Made by a program: the position numbers and the translations under genes. The notes under the pieces were generated by a model. The model was not told the origin of the DNA. It was given only the letters and a program-made list of their open reading frames with translations, and made no database searches. Shown here piece after piece: positions 41,459-54,243 of a DNA stretch of 64,000 nt; position 1 is the stretch's first letter, and each line of letters opens with the position of its first letter. The DNA comes from Tessaracoccus rhinocerotis. GTDB taxonomy: Bacteria > Actinomycetota > Actinomycetes > Propionibacteriales > Propionibacteriaceae. The DNA is taken from positions 310,001-374,000 of the forward strand of contig NZ_VKKG01000002.1 of NCBI RefSeq assembly GCF_007197885.1, in the 5' to 3' direction.

Positions 41459-41473
41459 CGAGCAGTCAGCGGC

Positions 41474-42895
41474 TCAGAGTGCGTAGTACAGCTCGAACTC
41501 GTGCGGGTGCGGACGGACCTGGATGGCCTGGATCTCGGCGCGCTTGAGCTCGATCCACGTCTCGATCAGGTCGGGCGTGAACACGTCACCGGCCAGCAGG
41601 AACTCCTGGTCCTCCTCGAGCGCGTCCAGCACCGCGCCGAGCGTGGTGGGCACGGTGTCGACGGTCGCGTGCTCCTCCGGCGGCAGCTCGTAGAGGTCCT
41701 TGTCGATCGGGGCCGGGGGCTCGATCCGGTTCTGGATGCCGTCGAGGCCGGCCAGCAGCATGGCGGCGAACGCCAGGTACGGGTTCGACGACGGGTCCGG
41801 GCAGCGGAACTCGACGCGCTTGGCCTTCGGGTTGGACCCCGTGATCGGGATGCGGATGCAGGCCGAACGGTTTCGCGAGGAGTAGACCAGGTTCACAGGA
41901 GCCTCGAAGCCGGGCACGAGGCGGTGGTAGGAGTTCACCGACGGGTTGGTGAACGCCAACAGGGCCGGGGCGTGCTTGAGCAGGCCGCCGATGTACCAGC
42001 GGGCGGTGTCGGAGAGGCCGGCGTAGCCGTTCTCGTCGTAGAACAGCGGGTCGCCGCCGTCCCACAGCGACTGGTGGCAGTGCATGCCCGAGCCGTTGTC
42101 GCCGAAGATCGGCTTCGGCATGAAGGTGGCGGTCTTGCCGGCCTCCCAGGCGGTGTTCTTGACGAGGTACTTGAACTTCATCACGTCGTCGGCGGCGGTC
42201 AGCATCGTGTTGAAGCGCCAGTTGATCTCCGCCTGGCCGGCGGTTCCGACCTCGTGGTGCGCACGCTCGACGATCAGTCCCGAGTTCTCCATGTGGCGCA
42301 CGATGTCGTCGCGGAGGTCGCCGAAGTGGTCCACCGGGGCGACCGGGAAGTAACCACCCTTGTACTTGACCTTGTAGCCACGGTTGCCGCCGTCCTCGAC
42401 GCGGCCGGAGTTCCAGGCGCCGGCCTCGGAATCGATGTGGTAGTAGGCGCTGTTCGACGTGGAGTCGAAGCGGATGTCGTCGAAGACGTAGAACTCGGCC
42501 TCGGGGGCGAAGTAGGCGGTGTCGGCGATGCCGGTGGAGCCGAGGTAGGCCTCCGCCTTGCGCGCGATGTTCCGCGGGTCGCGGGAGTAGGGCTCCTTGG
42601 TGAGCGGGTCATGCACGAAGAAGTTCACGTTCAGCGTCTTCGACTTGCGGAAGGGATCGACGAATGCGCTGGTGGGATCAGGCAGCAGTGCCATGTCCGA
42701 CTCGTGGATCTTCTGGAATCCCGTGATTGACGATCCGTCGAAGGACAGGCCGTCGGTGAACACCTCCGGGCCGAAGGATCCGGCCGGGACGGTGAAGTGC
42801 TGCATGACGCCCGGCAGGTCGCAGAAGCGGCAGTCGATTGTCTCGATGCCCTCTTCCTTGACGTAGGCCAGGAGCTCTTCTGCGCCGTTGAACAT
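41474..42895 (-). CDS. glnA: Glutamine synthetase type I-beta, adenylylatable
   Basis: A 473-residue GlnA1, the main ammonia-assimilating enzyme (glutamate + NH3 + ATP to glutamine). Signatures: [83 protein letters not shown]. The adenylylation loop [11 protein letters not shown] is present, so the nearby GlnE can modify its Tyr. GGAGG lies 13 nt before ATG 42895. A TAGGCT box (minus strand, 42940-42935) and a GlnR-like box upstream indicate nitrogen control. It is divergent from an RDD protein gene, as in mycobacteria. Confidence 0.96.
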
Positions 42896-42948
42896 TGGTG
42901 GTTTTCCTCCATTTTGGCTTGTGACTGTGGAGAGCCTATGGGCCCGCG

Positions 42949-42986
42949 ATTGCTCCACAGTTGCTGCAGGGTAACAGCCACGTTAC
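42949..42986 (-). promoter_or_regulatory. Candidate GlnR box upstream of glnA1
   Basis: Read on the minus strand, four pentamers follow each other with exact 6-nt spacers: GTAAC (42986-42982), GTTAC (42975-42971), GCAAC (42964-42960) and GCAAT (42953-42949). The a-n6-b-n6-a-n6-b layout is that of GlnR boxes (gTnAC-n6-GaAAC). The box ends 8 bp before the TAGGCT -10 box, so it would act close to the promoter. Confidence 0.45.
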
Positions 42987-43009
42987 ACAGGCCCGGATAA
43001 GCTTCGGGC

Positions 43010-43429
43010 GTGACGGACAACAAGCTCTATCCCGGTTCCACCCTCGGCCTGCCTGCCGCGGGGCGCGGTTCACTGGCCGGGTGGTGGCCCCGGATCGGGG
43101 CCCTCGTGGGTGACTGGGCGGCGAGCACGGTGGTGGCGATCGCCATCTTCGGCTGGGCCGGCGTCTACCAGGACGCTCGCGGCTCCTTCACCGTCCTCGG
43201 CGTCTACCTCGTGGAGGCCACGGTCCTCACGATCCTCACCGGGGGCTCGTTCGGGCAGCTGATCGCGCGCATCGGCGTGATCCGCGTCGACGGCGGGCCG
43301 CTGGGCATCTGGCGCCCCGTCGCCCGTACGCTGCTGAAGTGCCTGGTCATCCCGCACGTGGTGCTGGGGGCCGAGCGGCGGGTCATGACGGACCTGCTAC
43401 TGGGCACCGCCGTCGTCAACCGCCGCTGA
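43010..43429 (+). CDS. RDD-domain membrane protein
   Basis: A 139-residue protein with three hydrophobic segments (about 27-52, 58-80 and 100-125) and RDD-type charges: WWPRIGALVGDWAASTVVA carries the Arg and Asp pair, and IARIGVIRVDGGPLGIWRPVARTLLKC the second half. The GTG start lies 6 nt after TAAGCT (42998-43003). An RDD gene divergent from glnA1 is also present in mycobacteria (Rv2219A). Some RDD proteins act as transporters, but the role of this one is unknown. Its last 33 bp overlap the tail of the convergent TetR gene. Confidence 0.8.
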   Translation: MTDNKLYPGSTLGLPAAGRGSLAGWWPRIGALVGDWAASTVVAIAIFGWAGVYQDARGSFTVLGVYLVEATVLTILTGGSFGQLIARIGVIRVDGGPLGIWRPVARTLLKCLVIPHVVLGAERRVMTDLLLGTAVVNRR

Positions 43430-43999
43430 CGGCAACTCGCCCGTCAGGTAGCGCTGGATCGTCGGGCCGACGAGTTGCACCACCTCCTCGCGCGGCATCG
43501 AGGCCATCGGCTCCATCCGCACGAGGTACTTCGCGACGAAGATCCCCACGAACTGTGAGCCGACCAGCACCGCGCGCTTCGCCCGCTGCTCCGGAGGGCC
43601 GTCCAGGTGGCCCACGAGCAGCCTGAGGATCCGGTCGCCGACGAACCGGCGCAGCAGGTCCGGATGGCTCGCGATGCCGCTGCGCATGACGGCCCGCAGC
43701 GCCGGGCCCGCCGGCGACTCCATCAGGCCGAGGGCTGCGCGCACCAGTTCCTCACCCCACTCATGCCGGGGGAAGGACGTGACCCGCTCGATCAGTGAGT
43801 CCGGCGACGCCCCGCGCGAGAGGACCTCATCGAACAAGTCGTCCTTGCTGCCGAAGTAGTGGTGGATCAGCGCCGGGTCGACGCCCGCCTCGCGCGCGAT
43901 CGCGCGCATGCTCACGCCGTCGAAGGACTTGGCGGCGAACAACGATGCCGCGGCGTCGAGGATGCGCGCCCGGGTGCGCTCGGACTTGGCGGGGCTCAT
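43397..43999 (-). CDS. TetR-family regulator of the adjacent ABC exporter
   Basis: A 200-residue TetR protein. The DNA-binding part is ERTRARILDAAASLFAAKSFDGVSMRAIAREAGVDPALIHHYFGSKDDLF (residues 7-56), and the C-terminal domain resembles the QacR-type TetR_C of actinobacterial regulators. It starts inside the permease stop codon (ATGA) and is the last gene of the ABC operon, so it very likely autoregulates through the palindrome at 45505-45533. The inducer is unknown. It converges with, and overlaps by 33 bp, the RDD gene. Confidence 0.88.
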   Translation of the reverse strand: MSPAKSERTRARILDAAASLFAAKSFDGVSMRAIAREAGVDPALIHHYFGSKDDLFDEVLSRGASPDSLIERVTSFPRHEWGEELVRAALGLMESPAGPALRAVMRSGIASHPDLLRRFVGDRILRLLVGHLDGPPEQRAKRAVLVGSQFVGIFVAKYLVRMEPMASMPREEVVQLVGPTIQRYLTGELPSAAVDDGGAQ

Positions 44000-44790
44000 C
44001 GGGACTGCCTCGGCATCGAGCGGGAGGCCACGAACAGGAAGACGACGACGATGCCCGCGAGGAGGCCCAGCCGCCCCCAGGTGGCGCCGGAGACTGTCTC
44101 GTTCGCGGCGACGTCGACCACCGAGTCCACCGCCCAGGTCATCGGCAGGAAGTCGGCCACCACGCCCAGCACGTCAGGCATGTGCTCCTTCGGCACGAAC
44201 AGGCCGCACAGGAACAGCTGGGGCCCGATGAACACCGGCATGAACTGGACGGCCTGGAACTCGGTCCTCGCGAACGCACTGGCCAGCAGGCCGAAAGCGA
44301 CTCCGACGAGTGCGTCCAGCAGCGCGATCAGGATCAGCATCCAGGCGGTCCCGGCGATCTCGACACCCATCGGTCCCAGCACCAGCAGCCCGAGGAGGGT
44401 GGCCTGGGCAACCCCCAGGAACCCGAACACCGCGCCGTAGGAGGCCAGCAGGTTCCAGCGGCTCAACGGGGTGGTCAGCAGTCGCTCGAGGGTTCCCGAG
44501 GTGCGTTCCCGGAGCATGGTCACAGATGTCACTATGAACATCAGCATCATGGGCAGGATCGCGAGCATCATGGGTCCGATGGTGTCGAAGGGTGCCCGCC
44601 CGCCCGGCGGGACCGGCACGTCGACGAATGCGTACCAGAGCAGCGAGACCAGGACCAGGGGCATCACGATGATGATGCCGATGGTGCGCGGGTCGGCGCG
44701 CAGTTGCGCCGCGATCCGCCCCGTGGTCGTCAGCGCTGCCGGGAGGTGGGGACGCGTGCGGCTCGCTGCGTGCCGTGCCGTGGTCGTCAT
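43996..44790 (-). CDS. ABC-2 type transporter permease
   Basis: A 264-residue permease with six predicted membrane segments, starting near residue 37 (IGIIIVMPLVLVSLLWYAFV). The conserved region LRERTSGTLERLLTTPLSRWNLL near 92-114 and the late FLPMTWAVDSV are typical of ABC-2/DrrB-like exporters. It is overlapped at both ends by the ATPase gene and the TetR gene, so the three are one translational unit. It probably exports a drug or lipid; the substrate is unknown. Confidence 0.88.
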   Translation of the reverse strand: MTTTARHAASRTRPHLPAALTTTGRIAAQLRADPRTIGIIIVMPLVLVSLLWYAFVDVPVPPGGRAPFDTIGPMMLAILPMMLMFIVTSVTMLRERTSGTLERLLTTPLSRWNLLASYGAVFGFLGVAQATLLGLLVLGPMGVEIAGTAWMLILIALLDALVGVAFGLLASAFARTEFQAVQFMPVFIGPQLFLCGLFVPKEHMPDVLGVVADFLPMTWAVDSVVDVAANETVSGATWGRLGLLAGIVVVFLFVASRSMPRQSR

Positions 44791-45521
44791 GCCGCCACCT
44801 CCTGCTTGATGAGGGTGAGGAAGGTGTCCTCGGGCGTGGCCGCTCCGGTGCGCTCCTGCAGCTCGTCGATCGGCGCGTGTGCCAGGAAGTGGCCCTCGCG
44901 CATCAGCAGGATCGAGTCGCAGCGGGTGGCCTCGTCCATGACGTGGCTGGAGACCAGGAGCGTCGTTCCCTGCCGTGCGAGTGCGTGGAAGTGCTCCCAC
45001 AGCGACTCCCTGGTCAGGGGGTCGAGGCCGACGGTCGGCTCGTCGAGGACCAGGAGCTCCGGCGACCCGACCAGCGCGCAGGCGAGCGAGGCGCGGCTGG
45101 CCTGACCGCCGGAGAGGATCTCCACCCGCCTGCCGGCCAGGGCGGTGAGCTCGACGGCGTCCAGCGTGCGCGCGACGTCGTCGGGGCCGGCCCCCACGAG
45201 GCGTGCGAAGTGGGCCACGTTGTCGCGGATGGACAGGTCCCTGTACACACTCAGCGTCTGGCTGGTGTAGGCCACCCGGCGGCGCAGCGCCTCGTCGGCC
45301 GCCGGCCGGCCGAGCACGGTCAGCGATCCCGAAGTGATCCGCTGCACGCCCACCATCGCGCGCATCAGGGTGGTCTTCCCGCAGCCCGACGGGCCCAGGA
45401 GTCCGGTGACCGAGCCCGGGGCGAGGTCCATCTCGAGCCCGTGGAGGACCTCGTTCCCGGCCCGGTGCACCACCAACGCGCGGGCCGAGACAGCGGATTC
45501 CACAAGCGTTGAATTCAACAT
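44787..45521 (-). CDS. ABC transporter ATP-binding protein (drug-export type)
   Basis: A 244-residue ATPase with Walker A GPSGCGKTT near residue 40, signature LSGGQASRASLACAL near 137, Walker B LLVLDEPTVGLDP near 158 and the switch His in LLVSSHVMDEATRC near 188. The ATG at 45521 lies within a near-perfect palindrome, and no Shine-Dalgarno is visible. It is the first gene of the ATPase-permease-TetR operon, divergent from the subtilisin operon. Confidence 0.88.
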   Translation of the reverse strand: MLNSTLVESAVSARALVVHRAGNEVLHGLEMDLAPGSVTGLLGPSGCGKTTLMRAMVGVQRITSGSLTVLGRPAADEALRRRVAYTSQTLSVYRDLSIRDNVAHFARLVGAGPDDVARTLDAVELTALAGRRVEILSGGQASRASLACALVGSPELLVLDEPTVGLDPLTRESLWEHFHALARQGTTLLVSSHVMDEATRCDSILLMREGHFLAHAPIDELQERTGAATPEDTFLTLIKQEVAA

Positions 45522-45533
45522 GTGTTGAACGCT
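45505..45533. promoter_or_regulatory. Nested palindromes over the ABC operon start codon (TetR operator candidate)
   Basis: TTCAACA (45514-45520) and TGTTGAA (45523-45529) are inverted arms around two bases; outer arms AGCGTT (45505-45510) and AACGCT (45528-45533) extend the symmetry, and GTTGAATTCAAC (45508-45519) is a perfect 12-bp palindrome of its own. The ATPase start codon lies inside the element. The TetR encoded by the same operon is the likely ligand. Confidence 0.55.
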
Positions 45534-45686
45534 ACGCCGCTGCCATCGGCTCCGCAAGGGTTCGGCGTAACCGGCTCCGTGCGGCGGGGTTGGCCACTAG
45601 GCTGCCGCAGAGGGGTCCGGGGATGTATCACAGCTTGCGCGGGGCCCTCTTGGGAGGTGTCAGGAACCAACAGTGGAGGGACCCGA

Positions 45687-47183
45687 ATGTCACCGCAGGA
45701 AGCCGTACTGAATCCGTACCCGCAGTTCGACCCCTACGTCGCGGCGGCCTGGGGGATCAGGGTGGCCACGTCCGAGGCCGGTCGCGCGACCGCCTACGTG
45801 GCCGACTCGCTGCTGGTCACCTCGGAGCGGGGAGCCATGGCGGGTCTGGTCGACAAGGTGGCGCGGGTGGCGAAGGAACTCGGTCTGGGGCTGGAATCCA
45901 CAGACCTGGGTGTTCCCGCCGAGACGGACCTCCCCGGCGAGGGAATCGTCGCCGAGACCAACAAGATCACCCTCCACGGCGTGGCCGGACCCGTCGATGC
46001 GCTGACGGTGCTGGAGCGCGTGGGGGAGGGGCAGGGCGTGGCCCTGGACCACATGCTGGTCGCGACGCCCTACTACGCGGGGATGCCGTACTACGCCGGA
46101 ATGCCGTACTACGCGGGGATGCCCTACTACGCGGGGATGCCGTACTACTCCGGCGTCGGGGCCGCCGCCAGCAGCTACGGTGCGCCGGGGATGGGAGGAC
46201 GTGCGCCGGTGTCAGTGGTGCTGCCCGACCCGGCCTGCCGCCGCCGCGAACTGAAGCGGCCACCCGTGGTGGTGATCCCGGACACGGGCCTCGAGGACCA
46301 TCCGTGGTTCCGTGACCCGGCCCTGGCCACCTCGGAGGTCTACGTCGACGGGCAGCTGCTCGGCCGCTTCGGGACCGTTCCCGGCTCGGCCACACCGGAG
46401 CCGCCCCGCAACCCACTCGACGGCAGCGTGCTGCCCTACGCCGGCCACGGAACCTTCGCGGCCGGCCTGGTCCGACAGCTCTGCCCGGAGGCCCGGATCC
46501 TCGGCATCCCCGTCATGGCCGACGACGGGGTGGTCGCGGAGTCCTGCCTCCTCGCCACGCTCAACTCGCTGCGCTCGCGCCAATTGGACGCCATCGCCCA
46601 GGGCCGCCACGAGGACCTGTTCGACGTGCTCTCGCTCTCTCTCGGGTACTACCACGAACGGCCCGAGGACGCGCTGTCCGACGGCCCGCTCATGCTGGTG
46701 CTGCAGCAGCTCGGACGCCTCGGGGTCCTCGTGGTGTGTGCGGTGGGCAACGACTCGACGACCGCGCCGAACTTCCCGGCCGCCTTCGCCGTGGAGCCGC
46801 ACGCCCCCGACGCACTGCCGATGGCCGGGGTCGGGGCCACCAACCCGGACGGCACCGTTGCCTACTTCAGCAACGCCGGGCCCTGGGTCGGCTGCCACCG
46901 CCCGGGGGCAGCCGTGGTCAGCACCATGCCGGTGGCGCTCGGCGGCGACCGCCAGTCCATGGCCGCGATGCAGCTTCCGGCCCAGCAGCGCGGGACCATC
47001 GACACCGACGACTTCTCCGGCGGCTTCGCCACCTGGAGCGGCACCTCGTTCTCGGCGCCCGTGCTCGCCGGTGAGCTGGCCGCCCGGCTGGCCGCCGACG
47101 GCCGCCCCGGGGTGGAGCTCGAGGAGGCCGTCGAACTCGGTTGGTCGGCCCTTGCCGACGAACTCGGATGGAAGCGGCCATGA
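45687..47183 (+). CDS. Cytoplasmic S8 (subtilisin-like) serine protease with PYYAGM repeats
   Basis: A 498-residue subtilase with no signal peptide. The catalytic triad is intact: Asp199 in VVVIPDTGLEDHPWF, His254 in YAGHGTFAAGLV and Ser454 in SGTSFSAPVLAG; the oxyanion Asn is probably in VVCAVGNDS. A 120-residue N-terminal region of unknown fold (VATSEAGRATAYVADSLLVTSERG and on) is followed by five PYYAGM-like repeats (residues 128-157) as a Tyr/Gly-rich linker. GGAGGG before ATG 45687 is the ribosome site, and TAGGCT at 45598-45603 a possible -10 box. The stop overlaps the sigma factor start. First gene of a four-gene operon. Confidence 0.9.
   Translation: MSPQEAVLNPYPQFDPYVAAAWGIRVATSEAGRATAYVADSLLVTSERGAMAGLVDKVARVAKELGLGLESTDLGVPAETDLPGEGIVAETNKITLHGVAGPVDALTVLERVGEGQGVALDHMLVATPYYAGMPYYAGMPYYAGMPYYAGMPYYSGVGAAASSYGAPGMGGRAPVSVVLPDPACRRRELKRPPVVVIPDTGLEDHPWFRDPALATSEVYVDGQLLGRFGTVPGSATPEPPRNPLDGSVLPYAGHGTFAAGLVRQLCPEARILGIPVMADDGVVAESCLLATLNSLRSRQLDAIAQGRHEDLFDVLSLSLGYYHERPEDALSDGPLMLVLQQLGRLGVLVVCAVGNDSTTAPNFPAAFAVEPHAPDALPMAGVGATNPDGTVAYFSNAGPWVGCHRPGAAVVSTMPVALGGDRQSMAAMQLPAQQRGTIDTDDFSGGFATWSGTSFSAPVLAGELAARLAADGRPGVELEEAVELGWSALADELGWKRP
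46068..46157 (+). repeat. Five 18-bp in-frame repeats encoding PYYAGM
   Basis: Units at 46068, 46086, 46104, 46122 and 46140 encode P-Y-Y-A-G-M, the last one diverged to P-Y-Y-S-G-V. Units 1 and 4 are identical in DNA (CCCTACTACGCGGGGATG) and the others differ only at wobble positions, so the array is recent and may vary in copy number between strains. Confidence 0.9.
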
Positions 47184-47752
47184 CCGCCGCCACCAGCCTC
47201 GCGGAGCGCGCCTCCACCCTCTTCGAGGGCTACCGGGACGGCGAGCCGGGGCGCCTCGACGGGCTCGTGGAACTGCTCACCCCGACGCTGTGGCACGTCG
47301 CGCGCGCCTGTGGCCTGGACCGCTCCGACGCCGAGGACGTCGTCCAGACGGCGTGGCTGCGGCTCGTGGAAAAGCAGGCCACCGTGGAGAACCCCAAGGT
47401 GGTCCTCGCGTGGCTCGGCACCACCGTGCGGAGGGAGGCCTGGCGGGTCCGCAAGGAGCGCCGCCGCTCGATGACGTGGGAGGAACCCCCGGAACAGGCC
47501 GACGCCGGCCCCGACCCGGCCGACGCCGCGGTGCTGGGCGAGACCCAGCGTGTCCTGTGGGGGCACTTCAGGAAACTGACGCCCCGTTGCCAGGCACTCC
47601 TGCGTGTGGTGAGCCGGGGCGGGCGGCCGGACTACGCGGTCCTGGCCGAGACCCTCGGGATGCCGGTCGGCTCGATCGGACCCACCCGCGGCCGCTGCCT
47701 GGCCGCCCTGCGCAAGGCGCTCACCTCCGACCCGACCTGGAGCCAGACATGA
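47180..47752 (+). CDS. ECF-type RNA polymerase sigma factor of the protease operon
   Basis: A 190-residue sigma-70 family protein. Region 2 is LVELLTPTLWHVARACGLDRSDAEDVVQTAWLRLVEKQATVE (about 26-68), and region 4 is FRKLTPRCQALLRVVSRGGRPDYAVLAETLGMPVGSIGPTRGRCLAALRKAL (about 133-183). GSIGPTRGRCLAAL is typical of one actinobacterial ECF group. There is no classical zinc anti-sigma gene next to it. The ATG overlaps the subtilisin stop and its stop overlaps the next start, so the genes are tightly coupled. Target promoters are unknown. Confidence 0.88.
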   Translation: MTAATSLAERASTLFEGYRDGEPGRLDGLVELLTPTLWHVARACGLDRSDAEDVVQTAWLRLVEKQATVENPKVVLAWLGTTVRREAWRVRKERRRSMTWEEPPEQADAGPDPADAAVLGETQRVLWGHFRKLTPRCQALLRVVSRGGRPDYAVLAETLGMPVGSIGPTRGRCLAALRKALTSDPTWSQT

Positions 47753-48222
47753 CCGAAGCCTTCCAGCAGCCCATGGACGAGCTCGACGAGGAGATCCTCG
47801 AGCAGGTCCTTGACCTCTTCGACGCCCTCGACCCACCGCCGGCGGACCTCACGGAGGAGGTCGTGGTCGCCATCTCGCTCGCAGCCCTGGACGCAGAGAT
47901 CGCCACCCTGCAGGACGAGTCCGCCCTGTTGTTGCGCACCACCGGAGCGTCCCCGACCGATGCCGTCACGTTCACCAGTTCGGCGGTGCAGCTGATGGTC
48001 TCCACCTCCGAGGACGAGGGCGACAACCTCCGGATCGACGGCTGGGTCACCGGGGGCGGCGTCGAGGTGGAGCTGATGCGCGGCACCGAGTCCACCCCGG
48101 CGGTGGCCGACGCCCACGGCCGGCTCGTGTGGCGGAGAGTGCCCCGCGGCCAGGTCCGGTTCCTGATCCACCCCCCCGCGTCCGGAGCGCGGCCCGTGCT
48201 GACGCCGGTGATCGAGCTCTGA
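47749..48222 (+). CDS. Small two-part protein of unknown function, possible sigma-factor regulator
   Basis: A 157-residue acidic protein without membrane segments. Residues 8-60 are helical and acidic (ELDEEILEQVLDLFDALD; ADLTEEVVVAISLAALDAEIA). Residues about 75-157 look like a beta-sandwich with ADAHGRLVWRRVPRGQVRFLI, a pattern of carboxypeptidase-regulatory-like domains. It sits between the ECF sigma factor (overlap ATGA) and the CHAT protease (one base gap). By position it could bind and inhibit the sigma factor and be a substrate of one of the two proteases, but nothing in its sequence proves this. Confidence 0.6.
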   Translation: MTEAFQQPMDELDEEILEQVLDLFDALDPPPADLTEEVVVAISLAALDAEIATLQDESALLLRTTGASPTDAVTFTSSAVQLMVSTSEDEGDNLRIDGWVTGGGVEVELMRGTESTPAVADAHGRLVWRRVPRGQVRFLIHPPASGARPVLTPVIEL

Positions 48223-48223
48223 G

Positions 48224-50716
48224 GTGACTGGGACGGACCCCGTCGAACAGGCCGGGGAGGCCTACCAGGAGGCGCGGGCAGCGATCGCGCAGTACCGCCT
48301 CCAGGACGCGCGCGCCCACATCGCCCGGGCGCTGGAGCACCTGGGTGGGGCCGAGGCGTCGGAGGAGCGGTTCGAACTGGGGATCCGCATCCGTGTGACC
48401 CGGTCCTGGCTCACCTCCGACTCCGACGGGCTGGCCGCGGCCCTGGCGGAGGTGGAGGCCGTGCGTGAGGAGGCGGCCGCCGCGGGGCGGGACGACCTGC
48501 GGGCCGTCACCCACGTCCAGGCCGGTGTGCTTCGTGCCCGGGCGGGATTCGTGGAGGAGGCGCTCGACGAGTTGCGGCCGGCGGTGGAGCTGTCGGCACG
48601 CCTCCCGGTCGAGGACCGCGTCAGGCTCCTGCTGAACAAGGGCACCATGGCCTCCGAAGTGGGGCACCTGGCCGAGGCGGCCACGGACCTGTCCGCGGCC
48701 GCCGCCCTCGCCGTCGACCTGCCGGACCACGCCTTCATGGCGATGCACAACCTCGGGTTCGTGGAGTACCTCCAGGGCGATCTCCCTGCCGCGCTCCACA
48801 CCATGCGCATGGCCGACGACCTGGACGCACCCGTGGACCGCTCAGTGTCGCGCCTCGACCGGGCCCGCGTGCTGATGGAGGTGGGCCTGCTCGACGACGC
48901 GGCGGAGCTGCTGGCTCGCACGGTCGAGGACATGCGCGGTGCGGGGATGGCCGACGAGCTCACCAGCGCGCTGCTGGACCGAGCCAGGTGCGAGCTGCTG
49001 CGGGGCAACACCGCCACCGCCTCGGAGCTGGCCGAGGAGGTGGTCGCACGCGCCGACGAGCGCGGCGAGCAACTCAGGTCCCTCGCGGCCGCCGGGGTGC
49101 GCGTGGAGGCACTGCTGGCAGGTGGAGCCGACGACTCCGGGGCCGCCGAGGAGGCGGCTCGCCTCGTCACCGCTGCCCGGTCAGCCGGCATGGGGCTGCT
49201 CGCGGACCGGGCGGAGGCCGTGCGCGTCATCGCGGGGTCGAGGCTCGGGGCCGTGGCACCCGACGACGCCACCCGCGCCGCGCTGGAGCGGCTGGCGGCG
49301 TCCCCCTACTTCACCACGCGGCTGCTGGCCGGCCGCGCAGAACTGGCGTTGACCCCCGACGAGGAGCGCCGCGCGGACGTCGTCGCCGGGGCCATCGAGG
49401 ACCTCGCCCGCGCCAAGTCCGGCATGGCGAGCCTCGACCTGCGCACGGCCCTCACCGTCCACGTGGAGCCGATCCTGGCGATGGACCTGGAGCGGGTCGT
49501 GGCCCGTGGCGACGCCGCCGGGGCGCTCGTGGTCACCGAACGGTGGCGGGCGGCCCTGGACACCGTCCCTTCGGTCAGGCCGTCGGCGGACCCCGACGTC
49601 GCCGCCCTGTGGTCCCGGCTCAGGAAGCGGCACGAGGAGTTGCGCGACGCCCCGGCCGAGGCCGTGGCCGGTCTGCAGACGGACGTGGCCGAGCTCGAGC
49701 GGCAGTTGCGTGAGCGGTCCTGGCGGGGTGCTGGGGAACGGCTCGAGCGGGGGACCGGCGGGCCGCGGGGGACACAGCACGCCGAGCCGAACCTGCTGAG
49801 CTACTTCTGGGCCGACGGCGGAGCGCACCTGGTGCACGTCCCACCCGGCGAGCCCGCCCGGCTCGCCCGAGTGGGCCCGGCGGACGAACTCTCCGAGCTC
49901 GTGACGCGTGCGGTCTCCGACGCGGCGGCGCTCTCCCACGCCCCGCCCGGACCGTTGGGGGCCGCAGTGCGCAGCTCACTGGAGGAGGAGTTGGCCGAAC
50001 TCGACCGGATGCTCCTGCCACCCGAGCTCGGGCCGGGTCCCGTCGTGGTCGTCCCCAGCGGCAGGCTCGCCCGCCTGCCCTGGGGCATGCTGCCCCGGCT
50101 GCGGCAGCGGGGACTGACCCTGGCGCGCTCGGCCGCGCTCTGGCGCGACGGCGCGACCGCAGTGACAGGCGGCCCGCGCGTCGCCGTGGCGAGCGGCCCG
50201 GAAGTGGCGCTGGCACAGCAGGAGATCGGGCGCGTGGCCGCGAACTGGGAGCTCGCGGAACTCGTCCCCGGGGAACCGGGCGCGGTCAGGGAGGCGCTGC
50301 GCCACCACGACGTCGTCCACGTGGCCGCGCACGGCCGGCACCGGGCCGACAACCCGCTGTTCTCCTCGATCCGTCTCCACGGCGGCTCGCTGTTCGCGCA
50401 CGAACTCGAGGGCCTGGACGTCCGATCGAGCCTCGTGGTGCTGTCCGCCTGTGGTGTCGGCAGGGCGAGGCTGCGTCCCGGGGACGAGGCCCTGGGCCTG
50501 ACCTCGAGCCTGCTGGCTCTCGGTGTGCGGGCGGTGGTCGCGCCGCTGACCGACGTGCCCGACGCGCTGGCGTGCGAGACCATGGCCGCCCTGCACCATG
50601 GCCTGGCCCGGGGCATGCCAGGGCCGGAGGCCTTGGCCGCGGCGGCCGGTGGCGACCCCCTTGCCCGCAGCTTCACGTGGTTCGGTTCCGACTGGAGGGC
50701 ACATGTTTCGCAGTGA
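48224..50716 (+). CDS. TPR-CHAT caspase-like protease
   Basis: An 830-residue protein. Residues about 1-400 are helical repeats of TPR type (EAYQEARAAIAQYRLQDARAHIARALEHLG; VQAGVLRARAGFVEEALDELRPAV). The C-terminal 250 residues form a CHAT domain: VVVVPSGRLARLPWGMLP, then VHVAAHGRHRADNPLFSSIRL with catalytic His703, and VVLSACGVGRARLRPGDEALGL with catalytic Cys743. The dyad is intact, so it should be an active cysteine protease. Basic P1 preference is usual for the family. GTG 48224 follows the previous stop by one base. It is the last gene of the operon. Confidence 0.9.
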   Translation: MTGTDPVEQAGEAYQEARAAIAQYRLQDARAHIARALEHLGGAEASEERFELGIRIRVTRSWLTSDSDGLAAALAEVEAVREEAAAAGRDDLRAVTHVQAGVLRARAGFVEEALDELRPAVELSARLPVEDRVRLLLNKGTMASEVGHLAEAATDLSAAAALAVDLPDHAFMAMHNLGFVEYLQGDLPAALHTMRMADDLDAPVDRSVSRLDRARVLMEVGLLDDAAELLARTVEDMRGAGMADELTSALLDRARCELLRGNTATASELAEEVVARADERGEQLRSLAAAGVRVEALLAGGADDSGAAEEAARLVTAARSAGMGLLADRAEAVRVIAGSRLGAVAPDDATRAALERLAASPYFTTRLLAGRAELALTPDEERRADVVAGAIEDLARAKSGMASLDLRTALTVHVEPILAMDLERVVARGDAAGALVVTERWRAALDTVPSVRPSADPDVAALWSRLRKRHEELRDAPAEAVAGLQTDVAELERQLRERSWRGAGERLERGTGGPRGTQHAEPNLLSYFWADGGAHLVHVPPGEPARLARVGPADELSELVTRAVSDAAALSHAPPGPLGAAVRSSLEEELAELDRMLLPPELGPGPVVVVPSGRLARLPWGMLPRLRQRGLTLARSAALWRDGATAVTGGPRVAVASGPEVALAQQEIGRVAANWELAELVPGEPGAVREALRHHDVVHVAAHGRHRADNPLFSSIRLHGGSLFAHELEGLDVRSSLVVLSACGVGRARLRPGDEALGLTSSLLALGVRAVVAPLTDVPDALACETMAALHHGLARGMPGPEALAAAAGGDPLARSFTWFGSDWRAHVSQ

Positions 50717-50728
50717 CTAACTTGAAAT

Positions 50729-50744
50729 GTTCGAGGGGTCGAAC
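50729..50744. promoter_or_regulatory. Inverted repeat before metal-uptake operon (candidate DtxR/MntR site)
   Basis: GTTCGA (50729-50734) and TCGAAC (50739-50744) are perfect arms around GGGG, flanked by CTTGAAA and TTAAG that extend partial symmetry. The site lies 32 bp before the start codon of the metal-binding lipoprotein gene, where a DtxR-family repressor such as the one encoded at 54253 could block transcription. Confidence 0.4.
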
Positions 50745-50775
50745 TTAAGATCTGGGAATCAACATGGAGGTTCCC

Positions 50776-51723
50776 GTGCGAGCGAGTGCGACGAGGTTCC
50801 TGCCGGTGGTGCTGGCCAGTGCGGTCGCCCTCGGCGGGTGCGGCACTGCCGCGGGCGCCGGCGAGGAGTCGCTGACAGTCGTTGCCACCACCGGCTACCT
50901 CGCCGACGTCGCGGCCGAGGTCGCGCCCGGAGCCAGCGTCACCACCCTCGTCGGCCCGGGTGGCGACCCACACACCTACCAGCCCTCCACCCGGGACATC
51001 CAACAGATCCTCGACGCCGACCTGGTCCTCTGGACGGGGTTGCGACTTGAGGCCCAGATGGAGGAGGTGCTGCGCGGGCAGGACGAGCGCCAGCTCGCCG
51101 TAGCGGAGACGCTGCCGGAGCACCTGCTCCTGGGACTGGAGAGCACGGGTGCCGACGGCGTGCCGATGAGCGATCCGCACGTCTGGAACAGCCCGGAGGC
51201 CTGGGCGCTGGTGGTGGGTGAGGTCGCGGCCCGGCTCGCGGCCGTCGACCCGGGGGGCGCCGTCGGGTATCGGGAGCGGGCGGACGCCTTCGTCGTGCAG
51301 ATCGCCGAGGCCGACCGGTGGGCGGGCGCGCTCATGGCAGCAGTCCCCGAGACCGACCGCATCCTGGTCACGGGCCACGACGCGTTCAACTACTACGGGC
51401 ACACCTACGGCCTCGAGGTGCGCGCCACCGACTTCATCTCCACCGACGCCCAGCTCAGCGCCCGCCAGCTCAGCGAGTTGGCCGACCTCGTCGCCAGGGA
51501 GCAGGTGCCGGTCGTCTTCGCCGACAACCAGGCCAACCCCCAGGCGATCACCAGCCTCACCGAGGCGGTCGCGGCGCGGGGGTGGGACGTTGCGATCTCC
51601 GACGCCGAGCTCTACGCCGACTCGCTGGGCGTCGGCCCGGAGGTGGACAGCTGGCTGGAGGTCTTCGAGCACAACACGCGCGCTATCGCCGCCGCCCTCG
51701 GAGTTCCGGAGGAGGAACGATGA
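50776..51723 (+). CDS. Mn/Zn/Fe ABC transporter substrate-binding lipoprotein
   Basis: A 315-residue cluster A-I binding protein. The leader RASATRFLPVVLASAVALGGCG ends in a lipobox (LGGC). Metal ligands are visible: His in GPGGDPHTYQPS, His in SDPHVWNSPEAW, a third in VTGHDAFNYYGHTYGL and the Asp in ISDAELYADSLG. I chose GTG 50776 because GGAGG lies five bases upstream; ATG 50764 would place the Shine-Dalgarno inside the gene. Zinc versus manganese cannot be told for certain; no His-rich loop is present, which favours manganese. It overlaps the ATPase gene. Confidence 0.9.
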   Translation: MRASATRFLPVVLASAVALGGCGTAAGAGEESLTVVATTGYLADVAAEVAPGASVTTLVGPGGDPHTYQPSTRDIQQILDADLVLWTGLRLEAQMEEVLRGQDERQLAVAETLPEHLLLGLESTGADGVPMSDPHVWNSPEAWALVVGEVAARLAAVDPGGAVGYRERADAFVVQIAEADRWAGALMAAVPETDRILVTGHDAFNYYGHTYGLEVRATDFISTDAQLSARQLSELADLVAREQVPVVFADNQANPQAITSLTEAVAARGWDVAISDAELYADSLGVGPEVDSWLEVFEHNTRAIAAALGVPEEER

Positions 51724-52469
51724 CCGAAACACCCGCCTGCTCGGTGCGCGGGCTCAGCGCCGCGTACGGGACCACGCCCGTCCTGCGCGACGTGGACCTC
51801 GAGGTGCCGCGCGGCGTGGTGCTGGGGGTGGTCGGTCCCAACGGTGCTGGCAAGTCCACGCTCCTGAAGGCGATGCTCGGCCTGGTGCCCCCGCTGGCCG
51901 GGCAGGTCGAGTTCTTCGGGCGCCCGCTGTCGCGGGTCCGGGCCCGGGTGGGGTTCATGCCGCAGGCCACCACCGTCGACTGGGACTTCCCGACCACCGT
52001 GCGCGACGTGGTCACGATGGGCACCTACGGCTTCCTCGGATGGCTGCGTCGCCCGGGGCGGGTGGAGCGGGAACGCACGGGCCGGGCGCTGGAGCAGTGC
52101 GGCATCGCCGACCTCGCGCGCCGGCAGATCGGGGAGCTCTCCGGAGGCCAGCGCCAGCGGGTCTTCCTGGCCCGCACCCTGGTCTCGGAGCCGGACCTGT
52201 ACCTCATGGACGAGCCCTTCGCGGGCGTCGACGCCCGCAGCCAGCAGGCGATCGTCGGTGTGCTGCACGGGTTGCGGCAAGCCGGCCGGACGGTGGTCAT
52301 CGTGCACCACGACCTGGCCACCGTGCGGGACTACTGCGACCACGTCGCGCTCCTCAACGGCACCGTGGTCGCCAGCGGCCCGGTCGACGCCGCGTTCACT
52401 CCCGAGAACGTGCGCCGCGCCTACGACGTCGCGACGGCCGACGACCCCTTCCTGGACGTCATCGGATGA
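51720..52469 (+). CDS. Mn/Zn/Fe ABC transporter ATP-binding protein
   Basis: A 249-residue ATPase with Walker A GPNGAGKSTLLKAMLG near 39, Q-loop in GFMPQATTVDWDFP typical for manganese/zinc/iron transporters, signature LSGGQRQRVFLARTL near 142, Walker B LYLMDEPFAGVD near 162 and switch His in VIVHHDLATVRDYCDHV. It overlaps the lipoprotein stop and the permease start by ATGA, so the whole importer is one coupled unit. Confidence 0.92.
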   Translation: MTETPACSVRGLSAAYGTTPVLRDVDLEVPRGVVLGVVGPNGAGKSTLLKAMLGLVPPLAGQVEFFGRPLSRVRARVGFMPQATTVDWDFPTTVRDVVTMGTYGFLGWLRRPGRVERERTGRALEQCGIADLARRQIGELSGGQRQRVFLARTLVSEPDLYLMDEPFAGVDARSQQAIVGVLHGLRQAGRTVVIVHHDLATVRDYCDHVALLNGTVVASGPVDAAFTPENVRRAYDVATADDPFLDVIG

Positions 52470-53374
52470 ACCTGTTCGAGTTCCTCGGGAACCACACCTA
52501 CCGGATGGTGTTCCTCGGAACCGCTGCCATCGGGCTGGCGTCCGGGGCGCTCGGCGCGTTCGCGTACCTGCGCAAGCGCTCGCTGGTCAGCGACGTGATC
52601 TCGCACGCGGCGCTGCCGGGGGCGCTGGGGGCGTTCCTGGTCGCCGTCCTGCTCGGTCTCGACGGCCGGAGGCTCGCGCTGCTGCTCTTGGGGGCCCTCC
52701 TGGTCTCGGGTCTGGCGGTGGCGGCCTCCGGCCACATCGCCCGCGCCTCGAAGGTCCGCGTCGACACGGCCATGGCGATCGTCCTGACGGTCTTCTTCGG
52801 CGCGGGAATGCTGTTGATGAGGGTGATCTCCGACGGTCCCTACCCGGGCAAGGGTGGAATCCAGGACTACCTGTTCGGCAACGCGACGGTGATCACCCGT
52901 GCCGACCTCGCCACCATCGTCGCGGTGGCCGCCCTCGCCATCGGTGTGATGGTGGTGTTCTGGAAGGAGTTCTCGCTGCGGACCTTCGACCCGGCGCACT
53001 CGGCGTTCCTCGGCTTCGGGCGAAGAGTGGACGGCCTGATGTCGGTCGCCCTCGTGCTGGCCGTCGTGATCGGGGTGAAGGCAGTGGGGCTGGTGCTGAT
53101 GGTGGCGCTCGTCGTCACCCCGGCCGCCGCCGCGCGGCAGTGGACGCGCCGACTGCCCACGATGGTGGCCCTGTCCGCGCTGATCGGGGCGATGGGCGGC
53201 GGTCTGGGCACCTACGTCTCGGTGAACCTCGGCGCCGTCCCCCCGGGACCGGTGGTGGTGCTGGTGCTGTTCACGGTCTTCGTGGTCTCGCTGCTGCTGG
53301 CCCCCGGCCGCAGCGTGGGCCACCGGCTCGTGCAGCGCGCACGGGTCCGCAGGGCCCTGCGGGAGACAGCATGA
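52466..53374 (+). CDS. Mn/Zn/Fe ABC transporter permease 1
   Basis: A 302-residue ABC-3 permease with eight or nine membrane helices. Family motifs include SLVSDVISHAALPGALGAFL near residue 38 and FDPAHSAFLGFGRRVDGLM near 174, with VVTPAAAARQWTRRL near 218 as the ATPase-contact region. It is paired with a second permease of the same family that starts in its stop codon (ATGA), giving a heterodimeric pore. Confidence 0.92.
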   Translation: MNLFEFLGNHTYRMVFLGTAAIGLASGALGAFAYLRKRSLVSDVISHAALPGALGAFLVAVLLGLDGRRLALLLLGALLVSGLAVAASGHIARASKVRVDTAMAIVLTVFFGAGMLLMRVISDGPYPGKGGIQDYLFGNATVITRADLATIVAVAALAIGVMVVFWKEFSLRTFDPAHSAFLGFGRRVDGLMSVALVLAVVIGVKAVGLVLMVALVVTPAAAARQWTRRLPTMVALSALIGAMGGGLGTYVSVNLGAVPPGPVVVLVLFTVFVVSLLLAPGRSVGHRLVQRARVRRALRETA

Positions 53375-54243
53375 GCTTCCTCGTGGGCGTCGTCCTGCTC
53401 GCAGTCGTCACGGCCGTCGCGTGCGCGCTGCCGGGGACCTTCATGGTCCTGCGCCGCAGCTCGATGCTGGTCGACGGCATCAGCCATGCCGTGCTGCCGG
53501 GAATCGTGCTGGGCTACTTCCTCACGCGCAATCCGGACTCGCCGTGGCTCCTACTGGGCGCGGCGCTGTCCGGGCTCCTGGTGGTGCTGGGCAGCGAGTA
53601 CCTGACCCGGACCGGCCTGATCGCCGGTGACGCGCCACAGGGCCTGGTGTTCCCCGCCCTGTTCAGCGTCGGCGTGATCCTGGTCTCGCTCGAGTTCTCC
53701 GACGTCCACCTGGACACCCACACCGTGCTGGTGGGTGACCTCAACCTCGCGGGATTCCGGCAGCTGACAGTCGGCGGCCTCGACGTCGGACCCGCCGCGC
53801 TCTACGTCATGGCCGGCGTCGCCGTGCTGAACGGCGCGTTCGTCTGGCTGTTCTATCCCCGCCTCAAGCTGGCGACCTTCGATCCCGCGTTCGCCCGCAG
53901 CCTGGGGATCCCGACGGGCCTGCTCAACACCGCCCTGATGCTGCTGGTGGCGGTGACGGTGACCGCCGCGTTCAACGTGGCGGGGGCGATTCTCGTGATC
54001 GCGCTGATGGTGGTTCCCGCAGCCTCGGCGTTCCTGCTGACCAAGCGCCTGTCGCGGATGATCGCCGTCACGCTGGTGATCGCCGTCGGGGGTTCGTTCG
54101 CGGGCTTCTGGTTGGCGTACTTCCTCGACGCCCCCACCAGCGCCGGGATGGCGGTGTTCCAGGGGATCGTGTTCGCCGCGGTGTTCGTGGCCACTCAATC
54201 ACGGCGAACGGTGCCGGTCGGCGGCGCCGCGGCGGCCCGGTAG
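53371..54243 (+). CDS. Mn/Zn/Fe ABC transporter permease 2
   Basis: A 290-residue ABC-3 permease with MVLRRSSMLVDGISHAVLPGIVLGY near residue 28, FDPAFARSLGIPTGLLNTALM near 170 and VVPAASAFLLTKRLSRM near 211. It is the last gene of the importer; the TAG stop is also the first half of the TAGGCT promoter box (54241-54246) of the regulator gene, an economical overlap. Confidence 0.92.
   Translation: MSFLVGVVLLAVVTAVACALPGTFMVLRRSSMLVDGISHAVLPGIVLGYFLTRNPDSPWLLLGAALSGLLVVLGSEYLTRTGLIAGDAPQGLVFPALFSVGVILVSLEFSDVHLDTHTVLVGDLNLAGFRQLTVGGLDVGPAALYVMAGVAVLNGAFVWLFYPRLKLATFDPAFARSLGIPTGLLNTALMLLVAVTVTAAFNVAGAILVIALMVVPAASAFLLTKRLSRMIAVTLVIAVGGSFAGFWLAYFLDAPTSAGMAVFQGIVFAAVFVATQSRRTVPVGGAAAAR

Follow-up and report, generated by a model that had tools for sequence, protein, structure and literature searches.

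How might an extracytoplasmic function (ECF) sigma factor be controlled when its gene lies among those of two proteases? The question is raised by a four-gene operon of Tessaracoccus rhinocerotis, located in a stretch of 64,000 nucleotides (contig NZ_VKKG01000002.1, positions 310,001 to 374,000) that we refer to as the window. All four genes are on the + strand and encode, in order, a signal-less S8 subtilase (S8), the sigma factor (SIG), a small protein (SML) and a TPR-CHAT caspase-like protease (CHAT). ATGA overlaps join S8 to SIG and SIG to SML, and the spacing between SML and CHAT is 1 bp. The first-pass annotation of this DNA had described the linked, overlapping genes and their intact catalytic residues, and the coordinates, Pfam matches and alignments agree with that description. 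Two features go beyond it, namely tandem hexapeptides in S8 and a promoter-like site 5′ of the operon (Table 1).

We tentatively read the unit as an autoregulated, protease-gated sigma switch, a reading to which we give somewhat less than an even chance. SIG would read the sequence GTATCAS-N15-CTCYT and drive its own operon along with dispersed genes, including several for proteases. In unstressed cells, SML, translationally coupled to SIG, would hold it inactive via its helical half, as gene pairing and fold suggest. The TPR part of the CHAT protein would sense a signal, and the CHAT domain would cut SML after Arg63 in its linker, freeing the sigma factor. The S8 protease would be an accessory element. 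The first-pass annotation had interpreted the operon as a possible protease-gated switch too; the co-occurrence of the families, the largely conserved order and small protein, the invariant Arg of its linker and the shared promoter sites bear this out in part, but a necessary role of the subtilase is not supported.

Conserved pairing of the sigma factor and the small protein

A first search found SML in 20 of 60 genomes, a count that includes the window genome. Across the class, an SML profile matched at least 87 of 394 genomes, a lower bound because no more than nine candidates per genome were scored initially. Longer loci were taken for the 19 other matches of the 60-genome search and for 60 matches of the class search, mostly the best-scoring ones. 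Gene spacing was counted in 18 relatives, with L037 dropped as fragmentary. In these, SIG and SML overlap by 4 bp (17 relatives) or 1 bp (one relative), and CHAT lies directly 3′ of SML in 16. S8 is 5′ of SIG in 12 of the 18: nine show a 4-bp overlap between the two genes and one a 1-bp overlap, and in the remaining two the genes are separated by 218 or 2494 bp. Two further relatives have the order SIG-SML-S8-CHAT. Among the 60 class loci, SIG adjoins SML on the same strand in 59, the sole exception being L122, whereas CHAT is present in 38 and S8 in 40. The sigma factor and the small protein are the constant and tightest pair of the unit. The families co-occur, as the first-pass annotation had supposed, and cannot be called rare companions because the linkage recurs in the loci examined. 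The expectation that gene order and the small protein would be conserved largely holds as well, but the position of S8 varies and S8 is sometimes missing.

Neither CHAT nor S8 was near the pair in 20 of the 60 class loci, and 17 of these belong to one family (f23). The 17 consist of SIG-SML with neither protease gene nearby, and flanking genes recur in those that were read. Named relatives with operon genes include Paeniglutamicibacter, Arthrobacter, Phycicoccus, Pedococcus, Knoellia and Nocardioides. Sixteen matches to SIG were found in the named collection; 12 have SIG, SML and S8, and 11 of these 12 also have CHAT (the contig of the twelfth is only 3.7 kb long). The other four have no SML. 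In this collection the sigma factors closest to that of the window, at 65% identity, are those of Paeniglutamicibacter and Arthrobacter (L131 and L132), in which all four genes are present and motif sites occur both 5′ of the operon and after CHAT.

The first-pass annotation had named the subtilase, next to CHAT, as a protease that might cut the small protein. Four loci (L031-L034) retain SIG-SML-CHAT with no S8 in the locus, and a search of genomes G022, G030, G019 and G023 at E ≤ 1e-8 found no S8 anywhere in them, while two controls gave 1e-192 and 1e-196. These four species rule out S8 as a core part of the unit.

Proteolytic control of a sigma factor in this kind of neighbourhood has been suggested before. 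For the ECF54 sigma factors (Huang 2015 and Casas-Pastor 2021, as cited in PMC8999054, seen in part), control without an anti-sigma factor was proposed, since carboxypeptidase, subtilase and CHAT proteins are conserved nearby. The operon linkage itself is thus not new, because the association of ECF54 with subtilase and CHAT is published in that source. Carried over to our loci, this account would have the neighbouring peptidases degrade the sigma factor itself and so hold the system off, with SML as an adaptor or as the partner once called a carboxypeptidase. It was put forward from gene context (PMC8999054, in the part seen), and proteases do adjoin the sigma gene in most loci. Against it, SIG-SML remains in the four genomes that lack S8 and in the 22 of 60 loci that have no CHAT nearby. 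Moreover, SML is a constant partner that shares a 4-bp overlap with SIG, and this is the usual layout of sigma and anti-sigma genes. We therefore regard degradation of SIG itself as unlikely.

The small protein was modelled with AlphaFold2 from 19 sequences (predicted local distance difference test score, pLDDT, 83; predicted template modelling score 0.57). The predicted fold has helices at residues 11-26 and 34-58 and a beta sandwich at residues 71-141, and pLDDT falls below 50 at residues 63-67 only. By eye, no zinc motif or membrane segment was seen in SML, and no Pfam family matched it above the cut-off. Two residues are invariant across 79 SML sequences, Arg63 and Gly124. Arg63 is within a linker of varying length, where it is preceded by V, L or A in 72 of the 79 sequences and followed by G, S, A or T in all of them. 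Clan CD proteases often cut after Arg. Given this preference, and because an invariant Arg stands in a disordered linker, Arg63 is a candidate for the cleavage position. The gene pairing and predicted fold suggest, as the best model for SML, an anti-sigma factor that CHAT would cut.

The other products match their assigned families. The sigma70-ECF model TIGR02937 scores SIG at 49.7 bits (cut-off 42.9), and sigma region 4 was not reported by Pfam. In the CHAT protein, Pfam identified CHAT (4.5e-24) and TPR_12. The S8 catalytic triad, and also N355, is kept in 55 of 55 aligned S8 proteins, and the CHAT dyad in 54 of 57 aligned CHAT proteins, the remaining three having gaps. A PADLOC scan of the operon gave only a weak BovA match, to CHAT (E 0.0014). 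Elsewhere in the window genome, near 20 kb of contig C46 (L002/L152), a 377-amino-acid frame gave a second, weaker CHAT match (E 6.5e-5, below the cut-off).

Table 1. Positions of the operon genes and associated features, counted from the first nucleotide of the window.
Feature	Position	Strand	Remarks
Candidate sigma promoter, GTATCAC-N15-CTCTTG	45625..45652	+	34 nt 5′ of the S8 start codon; many relatives have the same motif 5′ of their first operon gene
Signal-less S8 subtilase, 498 aa	45687..47183	+	Pfam Peptidase_S8 2.5e-14; triad D199/H254/S454
Tandem hexapeptide array in S8, PYYAGM ×4 + PYYSGV, residues 128-157	46068..46157	+	Between the N-terminal and catalytic domains
ECF sigma factor (SIG), 190 aa	47180..47752	+	Pfam Sigma70_r2 6e-9, above cut-off
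SML, 157 aa, proposed anti-sigma factor	47749..48222	+	Predicted helical hairpin, disordered linker and beta sandwich
Arg63 codon of SML, candidate cleavage site	47935..47937	+	Invariant in 79/79 small proteins; disordered linker
TPR-CHAT caspase-like protease, 830 aa, GTG start	48224..50716	+	Dyad H703/C743; CHAT domain ~589-807

The operon is flanked by TetR/ABC genes (43397-45557) and by a metal-type ABC transporter (50764-54243), which interrupt synteny. DNA matching positions 41473-43431 of the window occurs near the operon in four relatives (L023, L025, L026 and L028), and the two flanking cassettes have no match longer than 250 bases there.

A shared promoter motif and its putative target genes

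Motif discovery revealed that the regions 5′ of the operons share TATCA-N16-CTCYT, with the final form GTATCAS-N15-CTCYT. The pattern TATCA-N16-CTCNT had 65 matches in the loci examined, and 51 of these fall in the operon zone on the operon strand, a zone that makes up ~28% of the sequence. The base before TATCA is G at all 51 operon-zone sites, a position that the pattern did not require to be G; many of the loci are related. Within the genus, all 16 operon-bearing genomes had the motif (43 sites, of which 18 adjoin the operon and 25 lie elsewhere), as did 7 of 20 operon-less genomes (7 sites); the reversed pattern gave 8 sites in each group. This comparison leaves out G445-G447, whose SML status was not determined. 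In other genera, 18 of 21 operon-bearing genomes had 44 sites (24 beside the operon and 20 elsewhere), compared with 4 sites in 3 of 20 operon-less genomes; here the reversed control gave 5 and 2 sites, respectively. The first-pass annotation had proposed looking for a promoter motif shared between the operon and other places in the genome, and these counts point to one. At the level of sequence, the motif is tied to the presence of the operon. We infer that SIG recognises it at its own operon and at dispersed genes.

The window genome contains six motif sites. They lie 5′ of the operon, of an S8-VWA protein of 1174 amino acids, of a fused PtuB-PtuA gene (Septu), of a PKD/VWA protein of 1918 amino acids that is secreted by the look of its start, and of a short-chain dehydrogenase, with one site lacking a clear gene. 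A genome from another family also has the dehydrogenase behind the motif, at ~50% identity. In other genomes, genes behind the motif encode S8 proteases (after CHAT or alone), an M6 protease, a DUF2278 protein and a regulator with AAA and BTAD domains. These putative targets are a descriptive listing rather than a measure of protease enrichment.

Three of the putative targets were compared between 37 genomes with the operon and 39 without it. A protein of 721 amino acids with no Pfam match, encoded after CHAT, is present in 7 of the 37 and in none of the 39. It has the motif 5′ of all seven copies, which come from one genus and are always beside the operon. In one locus (L030) this protein is followed by a large uncharacterised protein and then by a C14 caspase with peptidoglycan-binding domains. 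The S8-VWA protein, which is unlinked to the operon in the window genome, was found in 5 of the 37 (one a partial match) and in none of the 39. The motif is 5′ of all four copies with a matched N-terminus, under a relaxed pattern in which two have a spacer one base longer. The Septu fusion occurs in 9 of the 37 and 2 of the 39. The copy in the window genome, which lies outside the operon, matches both PADLOC PtuA (E 1.8e-189) and PtuB (E 5.2e-26) within a single protein. Three of the 11 copies have the motif (G000, G026 and G411, the last from another family).

Some further observations were made at these genes. The eight motif-less Septu fusions have another common upstream element, CCCTTCCC ... 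ATAATC, which by eye is exact in four of the eight and partial in the rest. L041 and L083 encode after CHAT a similar protein of 105 amino acids with a motif site 5′ of it and no Pfam family above the cut-off; Pfam gave no backing to a guess that it is a chagasin-type inhibitor. Behind target S8 genes, L027 (14435-16251) and L221 (after 15019) encode a protein of ~225 amino acids and an ATP-grasp-like protein (R2K_3, E 0.0027, below the cut-off).

Several observations weigh against the switch as we propose it. Motif discovery and part of its test drew on the same operon-near loci; for the genome counts, in which some of those loci recur, the sites away from the operon (25 in 16 genomes and 20 in 21) are the fairer measure. 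A looser form of the pattern is near the operon in only 41 of 80 loci, and the motif is in none of the 17 f23 loci. Some sites are inside reading frames or have no sensible gene downstream and are likely chance matches. Among the Septu fusions, 8 of 11 have no motif, and six of these are in operon-bearing genomes. Finally, Arg63 is equally invariant in the 22 class loci without CHAT nearby (some on short contigs), so that another protease may act there or the residue may have a structural role.

The putative targets also bear on a different role for SML, that of a regulatory subunit or substrate of CHAT unrelated to sigma inhibition, in which case the sigma factor would only boost a proteolytic unit for defence or cell death. 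The several proteases behind the motif, and the C14 caspase of one locus, would suit such a unit. However, SML stays with the sigma gene where CHAT is not nearby, and L122 alone among the 60 SML loci has no adjoining sigma gene. We think this role improbable and retain SML as the candidate anti-sigma factor.

Tandem peptides in the subtilase

The S8 proteins carry, between the N-terminal and catalytic domains, arrays of two to eight near-identical tandem peptides, usually hexapeptides, with a sequence that differs between lineages. The units include PYYAGM in the window and PYYAGV, PYYVSM, PLTRGN, PFTRGA, PYDSSH, PFHASN, NPYHSG, GYGDGV, GHPITG, NPFTRT, NPYGRT, NPFMKT and others elsewhere. The 12 named loci have PYYAGV, PYWAGT, GVGETH, PYDEGH, PYEETH, PYHESE, GHGDGI, PFEDPH and PEIHGG, with a ten-residue unit in two; outside the named loci, two units are seven residues long. 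Arrays were detected in 29 of 37 close S8 relatives, in none of 18 more distant ones and in none of 740 shuffled S8 sequences.

Such arrays might be no more than low-complexity sequence spacing the propeptide from the protease, with replication slippage keeping the units alike. Slippage can create tandem repeats, and eight of the 37 close relatives gave no array, two of which (L071 and L075) show longer degenerate repeats by eye. However, neighbouring units in the 29 arrays differ by 277 synonymous and 11 non-synonymous codon differences, where ~822 non-synonymous ones are expected at an equal per-site rate, with degenerate edge units counted. Detection relied on amino-acid identity and was thereby biased towards uniform units, and several of the species are closely related. 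The synonymous differences nevertheless show that the duplications are not recent, and by this codon measure the peptide sequence is held under constraint. Together with the lack of any such array in the shuffled sequences, this makes a mere spacer a doubtful explanation.

Two other explanations were rejected. As a mimic of a stretch in a partner protein, the repeat unit had a best match of four of six residues (14 loci). As for general Arg/Lys sites for CHAT, some lineages have R or K before G, T or S (TRG, GRT, MKT), but PYYAGM, PYDSSH and GYGDGV have none.

In the four loci without S8, a short open reading frame of ~61-67 codons stands in its place 5′ of SIG, with PYYVP units occurring 3, 3, 2 and 1 times, less uniform than in the S8 arrays. 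Because of its position, the peptide reader may be among the retained genes, or the frame may be a relic rather than functional. Probably the tandem peptides are recognised by a partner that persists after loss of S8, for which the TPR region and SML are possible candidates. Covariation of the repeat unit with its partners across 26 loci (partial correlation) was 0.58 for the S8 catalytic domain, 0.50 for the SML beta domain, 0.32 for TPR and 0.06 for CHAT, and −0.09 for SIG and the SML helices and −0.23 for the S8 N-terminal domain; we do not use these values as proof because they are confounded by ancestry.

A more specific scheme, which we offer as a long shot, is that the hexapeptides act as a password. 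S8 would release or display them, the TPR region of the CHAT protein or else the SML beta domain would read them, and they would thereby report an intact self protease, with peptide and reader changing together in each lineage. Interference, for example by phage, would then fire CHAT and free the sigma factor, leading to expression of proteases and, in some species, Septu. A literature search aimed at the arrays returned no match, although its strict query makes this a weak test.

Relation to known systems and biological meaning

In regulation of the RseA/sigmaE type, a protease cuts the anti-sigma factor and releases an ECF sigma factor. The proposed cut of SML would free SIG in a like manner, and the difference is that SML, judged by eye, has neither zinc motif nor membrane segment. 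Cleaved anti-sigma factors of this type are mentioned in PMC10028731 (seen in part), which deals with Craspase of type III-E CRISPR (Csx29, Csx30 and CASP-sigma), where a TPR-CHAT protease cuts the inhibitor of an ECF sigma factor. The present unit resembles Craspase in having a TPR-CHAT protease with a His/Cys dyad, a two-domain inhibitor (here, the proposed one) and an ECF sigma factor. CASP-sigma binding motifs lie inside its own locus, including at the defence gene cas1, according to the same partial source, and here too the motif is in the operon's own locus. The inhibitors differ in size, at 157 amino acids for SML and 565 for Csx30, and in the cut, which in Csx30 is at 427-429 in a loop of the C-terminal domain (PMC10028731, in the part seen) and here would be at an Arg of the interdomain linker. 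CRISPR parts (Cas7-11 or an array) were not noticed by eye among the open reading frames at 43500-53500, where no dedicated search was made. A CHAT profile matched 38 PDB sequences at E ≤ 0.01, nearly all TPR proteins and none named CHAT or Csx29, in a set unchecked for the presence of Csx29. The best PDB match of the SML profile had an E value of 0.057 and none was named Csx30, whose presence in the set was likewise unchecked.

SIG is likely a member of ECF54, as judged from gene context alone. Both are actinobacterial ECF sigma factors with a conserved context of subtilase and CHAT for which proteolysis is proposed, but the ECF54 account in the part of PMC8999054 seen has no anti-sigma factor, whereas here the conserved SML fills that place, and a promoter and target genes are proposed. 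The ECF54 context also includes a carboxypeptidase, and none is among our four proteins; as a guess, that name may have been given to SML. Relative to that partial account, the new elements are the anti-sigma candidate, the motif (for which the literature was not searched), the target genes and the arrays.

As to what the unit is for, Septu among the putative targets and the resemblance to Craspase make defence a reasonable guess; the proteases among them would also suit a damaged-protein response or cell death. If the switch reading holds, a sigma group of unclear control would gain an anti-sigma factor, a cleavage residue and a promoter that can be tested. The arrays, lineage-specific and near-constant within each protein, point to a peptide-reading step absent from the ECF54 and Craspase accounts, as far as the parts of PMC8999054 and PMC10028731 seen extend. 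If our reading of the switch is true, release of a sigma factor by a TPR-CHAT protease would extend beyond type III-E CRISPR as a widespread mode of control in actinobacteria with a target set of its own, and some species would couple the switch to Septu.

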